IMG/VR virus record: IMGVR_UViG_3300024518_003623
Coordinates: 1 to 23,322 of that record
Strand: one strand, 5' to 3'
DNA from: a virus
DNA: 23,322 bases
Below the pieces are notes generated by a model, which was given only the letters and a program-made list of their open reading frames with translations, made no database searches and was not told the DNA's origin. The position numbers and the translations under genes are program-made. Shown piece after piece: positions 1,541-7,144 of the stretch (position 1 is the first letter of the stretch; the number at the start of each line of letters is the position of its first letter).

Positions 1541-2602
1541 TTAGCCTGCGGCGTACATTACGCACGACTTTCCGAAGTAGTCCGTGCGGACCTCGTAGCC
1601 TACCGCGGACCACGTCACGAACTCATAATTGGAGTTATAGACCGGGCGAGGCATTGCGACGGTGTTGACGCCCATGCCTACTAGCGGGCGGATTTTAGAC
1701 TGGTCTAGCGGGAAAGCCATGAGCTCGTTACCCACTAGCTTGCTAGTCGGCTTAATAGCCGCCACGCCCTGCAGGGTTGCCAACTCGTCCAGGATTGTGC
1801 GCGACTCGTAGCTCGTTGAGAATTTGCGCTCAAAGTTGCTAATAATGTCGCGGCTCATGTAGTACGTCGCGTCCTGCTCGCAGTTGTTAGTTATCCACAA
1901 CACGTCGCGGAGCTGGATAAATGCCGCTTTAATCTCGGCGCCTGTTTTGGTCTGGTCGGTAAAATCGAAGCTAATGCCGCCAGCGCCGAGGTCCACCTGG
2001 TTAACGCGTGAGTCGTGACGCACACCACCCCAGCTGATATTGTCGACAGAAATTAGCGTCCCGCTAGGGTTGCGGTGGCCGTCGAGAAAGTTGTCCACTA
2101 GGTGGCGGCGCAGTGTTGCTACAGTCTCGCGCTGGTCGTCGATTAGCGCGTCGAAGCCTTCCGACTGCATGGCTAAAAACTCGCGCCAGTTACGATAAAA
2201 ACCCGCATCATGTACAGGCACGATAGACCCGTCGTACTTGTACTCGACTTGGTCCATTTTAGCGCCGATTTGCCCAGTCATAGAGCTTTGTGCGTTGCCC
2301 GCGTCGCTAGCCTGGCGGAATAAGTGCGTAAGCTTGCCCAAGCTGATGGGGTTAGAAAGCCCCATCAAATCGTTAAGGAATGTGTCCCCGTCGTCTGAGC
2401 GCATGCGTGTGACCGTCACGTTATCAAAGTCCTGGTAGACGTCCTTAGGGATAAGGCCCTGGTTTACTTGTAAGCCCTCCGCGCGCAGTGCGTTGGCGAA
2501 AAGTTTCTCTGTAACGTTAGCCGCGTTACGTCGCGCCTGTACAGCTTCCCATTGTTTAAGGCCCGTTTTGCTGTTGCCTAGTAAGTCTTTTTTAAATAGC
2601 AT
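1541..2602 (-). CDS. Major capsid protein
   Basis: A 353-residue protein placed after the protease-scaffold and decoration genes, the standard position for the major capsid protein. Size and features fit an encapsulin/HK97-like capsid: a helical N-arm (residues 1-50), an extended charged segment, an E-loop-like Gly/Asp-rich stretch near residues 100-130, and an A-domain-like C-terminus (EFVTWSAVGYEVRTDYFGKS). It resembles the large encapsulin-like capsid families of siphophages and podophages (DUF6260-like), although I cannot confirm the exact family by eye. A good ribosome-binding site (AGAGGGCG) lies 9 nt before the ATG. Residues 37-51 (NALRAEGLQVNQGLI) closely match residues 307-321 of the neighbouring protease-scaffold protein. 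Confidence 0.88.
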   Translation of the reverse strand: MLFKKDLLGNSKTGLKQWEAVQARRNAANVTEKLFANALRAEGLQVNQGLIPKDVYQDFDNVTVTRMRSDDGDTFLNDLMGLSNPISLGKLTHLFRQASDAGNAQSSMTGQIGAKMDQVEYKYDGSIVPVHDAGFYRNWREFLAMQSEGFDALIDDQRETVATLRRHLVDNFLDGHRNPSGTLISVDNISWGGVRHDSRVNQVDLGAGGISFDFTDQTKTGAEIKAAFIQLRDVLWITNNCEQDATYYMSRDIISNFERKFSTSYESRTILDELATLQGVAAIKPTSKLVGNELMAFPLDQSKIRPLVGMGVNTVAMPRPVYNSNYEFVTWSAVGYEVRTDYFGKSCVMYAAG

Positions 2603-2617
2603 TTTTAACGCCCTCTG

Positions 2618-3070
2618 TTATGCGAAGTAAACGCGGATTAATGTGTTTTCGGCTAGCGTTGGGACCTTTTCGTCGCAATACGCGACTATAACGTCCGTGC
2701 CGTCTGTAGCTGCCGCTTTGAGCGTGCCGTCGCCGTTACTGGTTAGCGCGAGGCCTTGCTCTGGGGTCTGCCCGCTAGCCACCAGCACGTTAAAGAACTC
2801 GCCGGAGCGTGGGCGGAAGGCCTGTACCTGGTCGCCGCTAACGAGAGAGTCGTCCACGGAGCGGGTGCGTAGCTCGTCCTTATCAGCGAGCAGCACCTGG
2901 GTGCCGAAAACCGTCGAGGCCTCGCCGTTTTCCAGTAGTGCGTTAGCAACTACCACAAGTAACGCGCCCGGGCGGATAGCTCCGCCCGCTATGCCTTCAA
3001 AAGTTAGCGGCTTATGGTTCGCGTCGTCCGCTGGTCCTACAAAAATTGTACGTTTTCCAATAGTAGACAT
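2618..3070 (-). CDS. Head decoration (capsid cement) protein
   Basis: A 150-residue, Ala/Val/Gly-rich, beta-strand-dominated protein located immediately before the capsid gene. Features typical of DUF2190-like or lambda gpD-like cement proteins are the GAIRPGALLVV segment, a Gly-Asp-rich middle, TSNGDGTLKAAATDGTDVIV, and a closing VRVYFA-like strand (TLIRVYFA). Such proteins bind the expanded capsid lattice and stabilise it against DNA pressure. The ribosome-binding site is AAGGGGAC, 6-7 nt before the ATG. The gap to the capsid gene is only 15 nt, so the two are probably made from one message in the high amounts both need. Confidence 0.75.
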   Translation of the reverse strand: MSTIGKRTIFVGPADDANHKPLTFEGIAGGAIRPGALLVVVANALLENGEASTVFGTQVLLADKDELRTRSVDDSLVSGDQVQAFRPRSGEFFNVLVASGQTPEQGLALTSNGDGTLKAAATDGTDVIVAYCDEKVPTLAENTLIRVYFA

Positions 3071-3084
3071 GTCCGTCCCCTTTT

Positions 3085-3504
3085 CTATTCAGGCATGGCG
3101 AAAGTGTCGCCGCCCTGGTTGTTGGTTTCAAGCTCGAAGCTGGCTAAGCCGTAGGACTCCTGGCAGTTCGCGGCCATGTTTTTTAAGGTGTCGACGTCTA
3201 GCTTTTTGGCCGCGTCCACGCCTAAACCTGGGAATTTGTCGTTATTGCCCACTAACTCCGCTAACTCGTCCAGCTCCTGGCCGGCAGCATTCTGCGCGTT
3301 ATTCTCCAACTCCGCCACTTTAGTGGCTATCGGCTCAACGGCTGCCGTGACGGCTGCGGCAATAGCCTCCGCGTTAGTCGCCAGGTCGTCGCCTGTTGCT
3401 TTCGCCTGTAGCTCGGAGTGCTGCGTTAACAGCGACTCGTCGCTTATGTCCTGGTTTACTTGAATGCCTGCGGCTTTCAAAGCGTTAATCATCAATTCGC
3501 GCAT
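3085..3504 (-). CDS. Probable nested scaffold protein from an internal start
   Basis: Codon 301 of the protease-scaffold gene is an ATG (3504-3502) preceded by a strong Shine-Dalgarno sequence GAGAGGG with a 7-nt spacer. It lies exactly at the boundary between the protease-like part and the helical scaffold part. The product would be 139 residues starting MRELMINALKAAGIQVNQ. Lambda C/Nu3 and related phages use the same arrangement to make excess free scaffold. The internal initiation signal is seen in the sequence. Its use is inferred. Confidence 0.6.
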   Translation of the reverse strand: MRELMINALKAAGIQVNQDISDESLLTQHSELQAKATGDDLATNAEAIAAAVTAAVEPIATKVAELENNAQNAAGQELDELAELVGNNDKFPGLGVDAAKKLDVDTLKNMAANCQESYGLASFELETNNQGGDTFAMPE

Positions 3505-4404
3505 GGGGTCGCCCTCTCGCTGGTTTGTTTTAGGTGAATAAGTAACTTTTCGCTCCACTGGGAGCGGTATGCCCACAAGCGTAGCACGTCCGCCGTCTAA
3601 ACGGTAGGGGACCTCGTAGAGGGCGCCGTCCACAGTGAAAACGACGACCTCCGAGAAAACCTCTTCGACATACATGTACTCGCTCGATTGTATTAGGGGT
3701 TCGAGCTCTAGCGCTGAGCGCAGCGCGTCGTTAATGTCTGAGAACGACGTCCCGCTCGCGTTGTCTATCAGCGCTACGGTGCCCGCGTGGACCTCTAAGT
3801 CGTCGCCTTCGTTGTTGACTGCTATGCCGACGCCCTGGTGGGGTTGTGCTGCGCCCACACTATCTAGGAGGATAGCGTCGTGGTCAAAAACCATGCCCCG
3901 AGCTATCCAGGTGTATTGGTCTCCGGCCGCGTTCGTGCGTGGCTCGTCCAAATCCTCCGCGCCTACAAACACACCCACGGAGGTATGTATGGGGCGGGCT
4001 TCGCTGTTTGTTTCTATCTCGACGACACGGTCTAAAAGCCGTTTCCCTCTGTCGCTTTTCTGAGCTTCCGGGACGTTGATAACTTTATCCAGGGCTATGC
4101 GGTCCCCTTCACGGCGGACATTTTCGTTAAATGCCCCCGCGTAGTATTCGTGTATAGCCTGCGGGTCGGTGGCGCTGATAAAGCGGCCGTTAGCGTCCAC
4201 AGGGTGCTCCACAGGGGCCAGGGTGCGGTTAAGCGATAAAATCGCCGCGTCTACCTCCTCAGTGGTGTATAAGCCCCCATTCATTACGACATTGTCAGGA
4301 AGGGTGTGCGAGCTAATGACGATATGTTCTACGCCCTCGCGCGTCTCGCGGCGCACTGCGTCGCGGCGCACTTGTGTAGAACAGTGTAAAAATATTCTTT
4401 TCAT
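3085..4404 (-). CDS. Capsid maturation protease fused to scaffold domain
   Basis: A 439-residue protein between the MuF gene block and the decoration/capsid genes. Residues 25-290 look like a phage head maturation protease of the DUF2213/assemblin-like serine type. A His in VEHP (H67), a His-Thr-Ser in PIHTSVGVF (H140, S142) and a DHDAILLD segment (174-181) are the likely active-site neighbourhood. Residues 300-439 are an Ala/Glu/Gln-rich helical scaffold-like region (EAIAAAVTAAVEPIATKVAE). In such fusions the scaffold part directs capsid assembly and is then degraded. The catalytic assignment is by motif only and should be checked with structure prediction. A second in-frame start at 3504 probably makes the scaffold alone. 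Upstream 4405-4468 is non-coding and A/T-rich. Confidence 0.78.
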   Translation of the reverse strand: MKRIFLHCSTQVRRDAVRRETREGVEHIVISSHTLPDNVVMNGGLYTTEEVDAAILSLNRTLAPVEHPVDANGRFISATDPQAIHEYYAGAFNENVRREGDRIALDKVINVPEAQKSDRGKRLLDRVVEIETNSEARPIHTSVGVFVGAEDLDEPRTNAAGDQYTWIARGMVFDHDAILLDSVGAAQPHQGVGIAVNNEGDDLEVHAGTVALIDNASGTSFSDINDALRSALELEPLIQSSEYMYVEEVFSEVVVFTVDGALYEVPYRLDGGRATLVGIPLPVERKVTYSPKTNQREGDPMRELMINALKAAGIQVNQDISDESLLTQHSELQAKATGDDLATNAEAIAAAVTAAVEPIATKVAELENNAQNAAGQELDELAELVGNNDKFPGLGVDAAKKLDVDTLKNMAANCQESYGLASFELETNNQGGDTFAMPE

Positions 4405-4468: not shown

Positions 4469-4654
4469 CTATATGTAAACGCCCGGAGGTGTCTCCAGGA
4501 TGTCGCTGTCCTCCAGGGGGGCGCCTTCGTCTAGCGATTTTTTGAGTAGCGCAGTAACGCGCTGCTCGTCCTCCTCAACTGCAGCGTAGACCGTCTCTAC
4601 GGTTAGCGTGTGGGGGTATTTTGCTTGGTACTCGATAAAAACGTCTATAAACAT
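4469..4654 (-). CDS. Small unknown protein
   Basis: A 61-residue acidic protein with a Tyr/Val-rich N-terminus (MFIDVFIEYQAKYPHTLTVE) and a helical EEDEQRVTALLKKSLDEG stretch, ending PPGVYI. Its ATG overlaps the stop of the MuF gene (TAATG), so it is probably translationally coupled to it. No family is recognised. The arrangement directly after a gene with a putative enzymatic C-terminal domain would fit an accessory, chaperone or immunity partner, but nothing in the protein itself shows that. Confidence 0.6.
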   Translation of the reverse strand: MFIDVFIEYQAKYPHTLTVETVYAAVEEDEQRVTALLKKSLDEGAPLEDSDILETPPGVYI

Positions 4655-6564
4655 TATTCCATTTGCTCCTTTAATATTTCGACTAAGTTAGGCGCGAACT
4701 CCTGGACAAAAGCATTACCCAGGGGCCCCGCGTCTATTGCGTTAAGACTGAAAACCTGCGCGTATGCTTCTAGGTTTTGGCCGAAGCGTATAGGGCCCCT
4801 CTTAAAATCTCGGTAGTATTTCGCACTATGCCCCCCACCGTGTCGCAGGTTGGTTATTGAGCCCACCAGGTCGGTAACGTGCCCCGCCTCTCGCCATGTC
4901 TCCTGTAGGTAGTACCCGGCTCCTCCATCCCATAGGGCGCTAACATACCCGAGGGGGCGGTTAAACCTCTCGGCTGCCACTATCTCCGCTACCGTCTCTA
5001 GCCGTACCTGCCCGCCCCTGGGCGCCTCTTTGAGTTTATCTACCAGCCCCCTGGCTAGTCCGCCGGGGGTTGTGGCGTCCGCCGCCCAGTCTAATGCGGC
5101 GCGCCCGTCGGCCTTGGCTTCCAGGGACACCTCCCGCACTTTGTTGAGCCACACTATTGAGACCGACCGCTTAGAGTACGCGGGGGCTTTCCCGCCTACG
5201 TCAGACTTATGGGCGTTATAGAATTTTTTATCCCGGTTTTTAATAGCGCGGTCGGCCGCGTGGACTGCGGCGTTATAGCTCGACGTTGCTGTTATCGTAC
5301 CTTTGTGGTCGTCGTAGTAGTGCCCATACTCGTGCCGGTACGTCGCGTCGCCTGGGTTCCCTCCGGGGACGTATTTCTTAGGCATGTTAATAGCTTTAGA
5401 GCCCGGGGAAAAATACGCGCCGTCTTTTTTCTGAGTTACTGCCGGCGTGCCTGCGTCCTCCAGTGCGGCCCGGTAGCGGGGGTCTGTTATCCCGCTCGCC
5501 GCGAACTGGTCGCCTAAAGTGGCCGGGGGTGCCTTGCGCTCCCTCCTGCGCGCCGGTGGGCTGGCTGGCGGAGTAGCTGGCGGAGTAGCTGGCGGAGTAG
5601 CTGGCGGAGTAGCTGGCGGCTCGGGGTCAAAGAATGAGCGCTCCGCTTTTATCTCCTGTTGGAGCTCGATGTCGATAACTTTGCCCTTTTTGTCAATCAG
5701 TACGGACCGCGTCGAGCAGTGGCAGTTGATACGGTTAGCCCCTGTAGCCCACCACTGCCGTTGCTGTGCTGTAGTGTACGCGTTGCCGTGGCGGTTGGCG
5801 TGGTTGGACCGGGTCGTCGGTATTAGCGCAGACAGGTGAAGCGTCCCGGCGCGTAGCCCGCTGATACCTGCCGCGACGTCCACCGCGTCCAGGCGTGCGT
5901 CGTTATACGCCCAGTTGACCTCAGTGTCTGCGATGCGTTTAGCGCTGGAGCGGGACACGTCGAAGCGCTCGCCGATGTTTTTCGCTATCGTCCGGGGCGA
6001 CTCCTTAGCGGAGAGGCCGGCGTTAATGGTTTGGATTACTTGGTCGCTGGTGCGGTCGCTGAGGGTCCTAATGCCGTCGAAGTTACGGACATAAACCTTA
6101 TTGAGTGCGTCCTGGTACTCCTGCGACATTAGGACCGCCTGCACTTCTAAGCGCTGCGGCGTTAGTCCCGCTATTTTTCGGGCCCGGACCACTTCGGAGC
6201 TAATTAGCTGGTTAAACTGGATTACCTCCTCCGCAGACCCCTCCCTGTACGGCGGCTCTAATACCGACTGCCACCACCAGTTAGGGGGCATTCTGTCCAG
6301 CTGGGTCTCGACTAGCTCGTCGTTTATTACGCGGCGGACGCCCCTGTTAACTTGCTCCAACTCGTCGGCAGTTAGCTGGTAATCGTACACCGGGATAACT
6401 TTGCGGTTTACTAGCGGCGTTACGGTGCGGCGCTTGCGCGGTATGTCCTGCAGTATCGCGCGGACTCGCTTTTCTGCGCGGGTGCATCGGTTTTTTAATC
6501 GACGGGAGGCTGTACGGCGGTTTCTAGCCTGCCCGGTCGGGTCCTGCTTAGTCTTTTTTCCCAT
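4654..6564 (-). CDS. MuF-type head morphogenesis protein with C-terminal HExxH (zincin-like) domain
   Basis: A 636-residue protein, much longer than a plain MuF/SPP1 gp7 protein. Residues 60-290 form the MuF region: helical segments, then TTRSNHANRHGNAYTT and the typical RINCHCSTRSVLID Cys-x-Cys end (C281, C283). A flexible linker at 315-340 is built of repeated PPAT units and then a basic RRRERK. Residues 345-636 form a separate domain with HEYGHYYDDH (HExxH at 411-415), the zinc-binding and catalytic motif of metallopeptidases. A candidate third ligand is E599 in NLEAYAQVFSL. MuF proteins bind the portal, are packaged in the head and can be ejected into the cell. MuF fusions to enzyme or toxin domains are known. 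The metallopeptidase call rests on the motif. The start overlaps the previous gene by 17 nt. Confidence 0.85.
   Translation of the reverse strand: MGKKTKQDPTGQARNRRTASRRLKNRCTRAEKRVRAILQDIPRKRRTVTPLVNRKVIPVYDYQLTADELEQVNRGVRRVINDELVETQLDRMPPNWWWQSVLEPPYREGSAEEVIQFNQLISSEVVRARKIAGLTPQRLEVQAVLMSQEYQDALNKVYVRNFDGIRTLSDRTSDQVIQTINAGLSAKESPRTIAKNIGERFDVSRSSAKRIADTEVNWAYNDARLDAVDVAAGISGLRAGTLHLSALIPTTRSNHANRHGNAYTTAQQRQWWATGANRINCHCSTRSVLIDKKGKVIDIELQQEIKAERSFFDPEPPATPPATPPATPPATPPASPPARRRERKAPPATLGDQFAASGITDPRYRAALEDAGTPAVTQKKDGAYFSPGSKAINMPKKYVPGGNPGDATYRHEYGHYYDDHKGTITATSSYNAAVHAADRAIKNRDKKFYNAHKSDVGGKAPAYSKRSVSIVWLNKVREVSLEAKADGRAALDWAADATTPGGLARGLVDKLKEAPRGGQVRLETVAEIVAAERFNRPLGYVSALWDGGAGYYLQETWREAGHVTDLVGSITNLRHGGGHSAKYYRDFKRGPIRFGQNLEAYAQVFSLNAIDAGPLGNAFVQEFAPNLVEILKEQME
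5570..5617. repeat. 12-bp tandem repeat encoding the PPAT linker
   Basis: Four perfect copies of GGAGTAGCTGGC (plus-strand reading), with degenerate copies on both sides, encode Pro-Pro-Ala-Thr units on the minus strand. The array separates the MuF and HExxH parts. It can change length without shifting the frame. Confidence 0.95.
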
Positions 6565-7144
6565 TGCTAGGCCCTGTGCTCAATAGCGTATATGTGAAAG
6601 AGTCGCCGTACAGCGTTGCGGCTTTAGACGCAAGGGCGATAACGATGTCCATGTCGTAGCTACTCGCCAGCACTTGGCAGCCCGCCGACCATTTGCCCAC
6701 CACGGTGCTGGTGCCGTTTTTCCTAGACCTGTGCATATTGAACCCGCCGAGGGTGTTCTCGATTGTTGTCGCGTCCATGTCCAGGACCGCGTCCCTGTTG
6801 TTGTCCCGGTAAACGTTTACGGGTTTTACTTGTACTAGCGCCGGCTGCCCTTTGTGGAGCCCTAGGGAGAATAGCCCCCGGTGTTGCCCCGGCGCCATTA
6901 TGCCTGTGCCCTTCGGGTTTATAGGGTTAACCCGGTAATCGGTGCCCGGGTCGGTAGTGGCAGGGAACGAGAGACAACACTCCGCCCCCTCCCGGTCCTT
7001 AAAAGCTATGTAGACAAAGTCGTTAAAAGTATTGGCTCCGTCTCCTGCGGTGCGCATGCCCACGATATTTAGGTTATATGCGCCGGTGTTAAAAAAGCGG
7101 TACCCGGCCGCCGTGACTATCTGCCTAAGCTCGTGGTATTTCAT
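6548..7144 (-). CDS. L,D-transpeptidase (YkuD)-like protein in the head module
   Basis: A 198-residue protein. Residues 130-160 read GGFNMHRS, then KWSAGCQV: H138, S153, G155 and C156 match the YkuD catalytic pattern of a His followed about 15 residues later by Ser-x-Gly-Cys, where the Cys is the nucleophile. The preceding VNVYRDNNRDAVLDMD and GQHRGLFSLGLHKGQPALVQ fit a beta-rich fold. YkuD enzymes cut and join peptidoglycan stem peptides through a Cys. No signal peptide or membrane segment is visible. The gene sits between portal and MuF with ATGA coupling to the portal stop, so a packaged, cell-wall-acting entry protein is plausible (inference). The HGC usually seen in YkuD is AGC here, so it is a divergent or related family rather than a textbook member. 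Confidence 0.65.
   Translation of the reverse strand: MKYHELRQIVTAAGYRFFNTGAYNLNIVGMRTAGDGANTFNDFVYIAFKDREGAECCLSFPATTDPGTDYRVNPINPKGTGIMAPGQHRGLFSLGLHKGQPALVQVKPVNVYRDNNRDAVLDMDATTIENTLGGFNMHRSRKNGTSTVVGKWSAGCQVLASSYDMDIVIALASKAATLYGDSFTYTLLSTGPSNGKKD

Follow-up and report, generated by a model that had tools for sequence, protein, structure and literature searches.

Does the likeness between a segment of the major capsid protein and a segment of the protease-scaffold protein of this virus reflect a functional element common to both, and if so, which part of it is shared? The window (the whole stretch of DNA analysed, a 23,322-base IMG/VR record) carried on its minus strand genes for small and large terminase, portal, MuF-like protein, protease-scaffold, decoration protein and major capsid protein, best explained as a head-assembly module of the ES18/TW1/Sf11 type. 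Coordinates of capsid, decoration and protease-scaffold features are window positions, all on the minus strand. The capsid family (PF19774/phrog_771) and the protease-scaffold family (phrog_760) each occurred in about 330-340 phage records, ES18 included; ES18, Sf11 and TW1 all have this capsid type, and the hosts of the phages that carry it include Salmonella, Klebsiella, Pseudomonas and Vibrio. The head decoration protein (phrog_766; 2618-3070) served as a control family, and the motif described below was not enriched in it. Elsewhere in the window, the MuF-like protein (4654-6564; 636 aa) had an extension of ~300 aa beyond a PATPPATPPATPPATPPASPPA linker, with the stretch YRHEYGHYYDD (an HExxH pattern, cf. 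metalloproteases), which lies outside the region matched by the MuF family. Between the portal and MuF genes, an unusual location for a lysis-type gene, the window encodes a phrog_3000/endolysin-like protein (phrog_33083, lysis; 6548-7144). A minus-strand ORF at 415-615 contained a tandem MRTLTPTPMQKRP repeat and is probably repetitive DNA, not a gene.

The major capsid protein (353 aa, HK97 fold; 1541-2602) matched PF19774 (DUF6260; E = 1.5e-103) and phrog_771; its AF2 model had a pLDDT of 85, with PDB 9ocb (Sf11) and 5wk1 (TW1) as the best Foldseek matches. Sequence family and fold both agreed with the DUF6260 / ES18-Sf11-TW1 capsid type. Helices were predicted by AF2 at residues 12-34 and 36-41, a coil at 42-52 and a helix at 53-68, followed by the shell domain; residues 1-47 (2462-2602) form a helical N-arm and, judged from AF2 and Sf11 homology, a putative propeptide. 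The protease-scaffold fusion ORF (439 aa; 3085-4404; phrog_760, relatives annotated DUF2213) comprised a protease domain (residues 1-184; 3853-4404; pLDDT about 90), a small folded middle domain (residues 221-287; 3544-3744), shortened or absent in relatives L029 and L032, and a scaffold. Rows from annotated phage records were left out of the AF2 alignments. The protease domain had the herpes/T4-type protease fold, T4 gp21 being its only strong fold match (5jbl; E = 3e-5; TM 0.69 by target length). Conserved His and Ser were found; H67, S142 and D174-H175 were invariant in 43 sequences and are the presumed catalytic residues.

The preliminary description had paired capsid residues 37-51 (NALRAEGLQVNQGLI; 2450-2494) with protease-scaffold residues 307-321 (NALKAAGIQVNQDIS; 3442-3486), and the pairing was placed correctly: 9 of the first 12 positions were identical and 2 conservative (R/K and L/I). 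BLASTP of the two proteins gave E = 0.003 as a single comparison. With shuffled sequences, the best ungapped score between capsid and protease-scaffold (52) was reached 5 times in 2,000 (Gumbel p about 0.002). None of the other protein pairs in the window, of 190 compared, scored as high; the runner-up (50) was a visibly unrelated pair. Since it was the best of 190 pairs, at a score that 5 of the 2,000 shuffles also reached, the bare match on its own amounts to a look-elsewhere coincidence. Over the first 12 codons, 26 of 36 bases were identical and 3 of the 9 shared residues used different codons, which ruled out a recent DNA duplication of the segment.

Relatives comprised 76 distinct capsid/protease-scaffold pairs taken from viral contigs and phage records; a scan of genome contigs gave one locus only (L038, in a MAG of Candidatus Zixiibacteriota). 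Apart from L001, which is 97% identical, no relative shared the whole 12-residue match with the window. The capsid half (FANALRASGL) was present and the scaffold half absent in L018, and the scaffold half was present and the capsid half absent in L006 and L011. The two segments did not covary, likeness being 26.0 within phages and 25.9 between phages (permutation p = 0.45), and concerted evolution of the segments was thereby ruled out. With the match confined to two close relatives, its halves found separately elsewhere and no within-phage likeness, the 12-residue match is not a conserved element; absence from relatives was what the preliminary description itself had expected of chance. The capsid-arm linker that contains the NALRAE half is variable, and the NAL[RK]A[EA] likeness beside the core is a lineage-specific coincidence.

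Chance can be extended to the match as a whole, which would then be the best of many comparisons between two proteins with a high content of A, N and L, its core as meaningless as the rest. The shuffle frequency, the number of pairs available, the restriction to L001, the separated halves and the lack of covariation all favour this reading, and it accounts for the NALRAE half. It leaves unexplained the conservation of the Asn core, the protease column that headed the matrix ranking and the Asn-specific enrichment, and it is unlikely. The reported likeness is mostly coincidence, overlying a real shared element.

The core of the match, G-[IL]-x-V-N-[Q/A/E/S], was part of a conserved motif. A matrix built from the capsid Asn47 site alone was applied to 3,304 alignment columns from 17 gene families, and its best non-self column was protease Asn197 (6.44; next 4.56). 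Of 76 diverse relatives, 74 had Asn at the position of capsid Asn47 (GLQVN|Q); the preceding residue was mostly V, G, A or T, and the following one almost always A, E, D, Q, S or T. Asn197 (GIAVN|N; 3811-3828), directly C-terminal of the protease domain, was Asn in 73 of 76 relatives. In the AF2 model the protease domain ended near residue 184 and Asn197 lay in a linker predicted to be disordered (residues 185-215, pLDDT < 50); similarity to ES18-type proteases stopped at residue 197. A near-invariant Asn in a disordered linker beside the protease is as expected for a processing site, and Asn197 is a candidate autoprocessing (release) site.

Occurrences of [LIVMFY]x[AVGT]N[AQEST] were counted against shuffles. 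The last 145 residues of the 76 scaffolds held 172 (22.9 +/- 4.3 in shuffles) and the capsid arms 106 (9.7 in shuffles). Over whole families, the protease-scaffold had 307 against 63.5 (4.8-fold) and the capsid 206 against 49.7 (4.1-fold), with a milder excess (2.7x) at mature capsid positions; the remaining 15 families (among them portal, large terminase, decoration and MuF-like protein) were at 0-2.2-fold, without such an excess. When the central residue was replaced by every other amino acid, Asn was the sole outlier (z 31.5 and 36.9; next best 9.1 and 3.6). The shuffle z-scores overstate independence, since the sequences share ancestry, and the motif classes were defined with the capsids, and in part the scaffolds, already in view; these figures therefore gauge effect size better than significance. 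The Asn outlier was seen in scaffold, capsid arm and post-protease linker. The motif learned on close-clade capsids predicted other-clade scaffolds (42 vs 8.6), and the reverse cross-validation between clades was weak (29 vs 17.7 +/- 4.1). Protease, scaffold and capsid thus have a conserved motif in common, which may be a shared cleavage consensus of the T4 gp21 kind.

An Asn conserved for folding, because it ends or starts helices, would be in keeping with the several motif sites that lie at helix ends in the models. Capping would also favour Ser, Asp and Thr, which were unenriched in the same context in scaffold and capsid arm; it thus does not explain the Asn outlier, and a helix N-cap as the cause of the Asn was ruled out. 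Asn197, moreover, is in a predicted disordered region, and a structural role of this kind is very unlikely.

The motif, written [L/I/M]-x-[V/A/G/T]-Asn-[A/S/Q/E/T], probably marks cuts by the T4 gp21-like protease, with the scaffold made also from an internal start. The motif Asn would be the cleavage site, the cut following it. The analysis showed a motif that is conserved, confined to these two families and located in predicted coil, together with a conserved internal start signal. A protease recognition site had been one of the functions suggested for the shared segment; the suggestion holds up for the core G-[IL]-x-V-N-x, on the capsid-site matrix, the family-wide enrichment, the predicted disorder and the Sf11 structure.

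In the capsid, the candidate cleavage site is LQVN|Q (Asn47; 2459-2473), chosen on conservation, Sf11 alignment and its place in the coil at 42-52, which had the lowest AF2 confidence in the arm region. The authors of the Sf11 structure infer N-arm cleavage of the capsid protein (Sf11 gp39, 9OCB), the exact bond being unreported in their paper, and by analogy the N-arm would be removed here on maturation. N47|Q48 of the window aligned with Sf11 N45|A46, and the ordered Sf11 capsid model begins at A46, directly after the aligned N45. Sf11 tryptic peptides extend back to about residue 40, so that a cut solely after N45 would be incomplete; VFVN33|A34, upstream in Sf11, also matched the motif and fitted the peptides better than N45|A46. 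The TW1 capsid protein has 352 residues against 294 in the solved chain, a difference of 58, and its residue 58 is Asn (N58); if the 58 missing residues are the N-terminal ones, they would end at N58. In the literature searched, no description of the maturation cleavage sites of this capsid type was found, the Sf11 paper only inferring an N-arm cut. A second conserved Asn was observed at capsid residues 7-12 (2567-2584) in the window and relatives, in the pattern [LI]-[IV]-[GA]-N-S, which fits the cleavage motif and resembles the scaffold C-terminal [IL]-V-[GA]-N-S-[GD]-K.

In the scaffold, the frame from the internal ATG (Met301; 3085-3504) encodes 139 aa, mostly helical, with an SD-like GAGG 8 nt before the ATG (3513-3516). 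In 71 of 73 relatives the conserved Met301 followed an SD-like stretch of at least 4 nt, whereas the same held for 84 of 700 internal Met codons elsewhere; an internal in-frame start with its ribosome-binding site was thus kept in relatives, as in the lambda C/Nu3 arrangement. AF2 placed a disordered linker at residues 288-296 and helices at 300-311, 322-335 and 345-386. A separately translated 139-residue scaffold starting at Met301 is supported by start-site conservation and by the model. The preliminary description had placed the scaffold segment near the N-terminus on condition that the internal ATG is used, and this conserved signal gives that placement good support.

Three motif matches in the scaffold differed in conservation and position. 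IQVN|Q (Asn317; 3451-3465) fitted the motif and lay in the predicted coil between helices 300-311 and 322-335; it was kept in only part of the close clade, many close relatives carrying TEG there, and TW1 had an equivalent site (GLAVN|S). Asn317 is a possible, optional cleavage site. The further matches were LATN|A (Asn344; 3370-3384) and LVGN|N (Asn387; 3241-3255), the latter at the end of the long helix, Asn in 28 of 34 members of the close clade and the better conserved. In other clades, including the alphaproteobacterial and ES18-like ones, the scaffold start was replaced altogether by a different sequence. In relative L030, the protease-scaffold ORF contained the scaffold start twice, and the insert between the two copies, some 70-80 residues long (DERSDLIDRMASAGGIARDTLLAILAGDIETPPDERLRGFAEVLG), resembles a small helical module of the DNA-binding type.

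Besides the shared Asn site, the capsid arm and the scaffold start showed a weaker likeness at the level of the families. Their profiles scored above column-shuffled controls for most references with the window and L001 left out; the likeness was in register and modest (P between about 6e-5 and 0.03, according to the reference used), and in a set of about 190 profile windows drawn from these phages each was the other's best non-self match. This would be explained if the N-terminal helix-turn-helix of the scaffold imitated the capsid N-arm (helix, Gly-loop, helix), which is quite unlikely; equally doubtful is the step that the scaffold start docks at the N-arm's place on the shell and is displaced on maturation. 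The reciprocal match, the similar helix-coil-helix layout of arm and scaffold start in AF2, and a like pattern of acidic, hydrophobic and aromatic-Asp/Asn residues in distant clades speak for imitation. The significance is, however, modest and varies with the reference, the scaffold start differs in sequence in the alphaproteobacterial and ES18-like clades, the segments did not covary within phages, and helix capping patterns could produce the same signal. Because the profile likeness is modest and reference-dependent, assembly mimicry is kept as a minor rival; of the mimicry or co-assembly element proposed earlier, the in-register profile likeness survives, and the matched segments themselves were no more alike within phages than between them. 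A combined form, in which the scaffold helix-turn-helix both mimics the N-arm and bears the same Asn site, so that cuts would free scaffold and arm together, is very doubtful; if true, a shared docking place with simultaneous cuts would act as an inherent switch that turns the procapsid into the mature shell.

An ancestral duplication of a delta-type domain common to capsid and scaffold had been proposed as well. Local similarity and the N-terminal position in both products favour it, and nothing else does. The capsid linker holding the NALRAE half is variable, the scaffold starts are non-homologous across clades, having been replaced in some, 3 of the 9 shared residues have differing codons, and there is no DNA-level trace; these points ruled out delta-domain ancestry, and the duplication is extremely improbable. 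Nor did the arm correspond to an HK97-kind delta domain (about 100 residues, no separate scaffold), since it has about 47 residues and a separate scaffold domain exists.

Under the favoured reading, cleavage at a common Asn motif, one ORF would supply a T4 gp21-like maturation protease joined to scaffold, and scaffold would also be made alone from the conserved internal start Met301. The protease would release itself by cutting after the Asn of the linker that follows its domain; cuts in the scaffold coils would lead to breakdown and exit of the scaffold; and cutting the linker that joins the capsid's helical N-arm to its shell domain would remove a short delta-like arm. The Asn-centred consensus names concrete residues in protease, scaffold and capsid, which makes cleavage testable.

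The nested layout is that of lambda C/Nu3 and Mu I/Z, in which translation of the scaffold begins in frame at a start inside the protease gene; their protease and capsid families are others. Herpesvirus UL26/UL26.5 (assemblin R- and M-sites) has a layout like that of the window's protease-scaffold, with a protease-scaffold fusion, a release site after the protease and a scaffold from an internal start. Assemblin cuts Ala-Ser bonds, in contrast to the Asn-x candidate sites in the window, and the herpes capsid protein itself is uncut. T4 gp21 is the classic example of a single protease that cuts the capsid gp23 N-terminus, the scaffold gp22 and itself at one short consensus; its motif is L/I-x-E, against the Asn-centred motif here, and T4 has protease and scaffold on separate genes, whereas they are fused in the window. 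Sf11 gp39 (9OCB, Shigella phage) and TW1 gp57 (5WK1, Pseudoalteromonas phage) are capsid homologues at about 30% identity. In phage P2, gpO combines protease and scaffold in one protein, with release by self-cleavage, and the capsid is N-terminally processed, a pattern described for P2-like phages (PMC10612066). The P2-type portal is processed too, whereas the window gave no sign of portal processing; gpO shares with the window the joining of protease and scaffold in one protein, and its sequence family differs. If the proposed cleavage is true, this capsid type, carried by over 330 phage records in the collection, would be served by a protease of the T4 gp21 fold with a different specificity.
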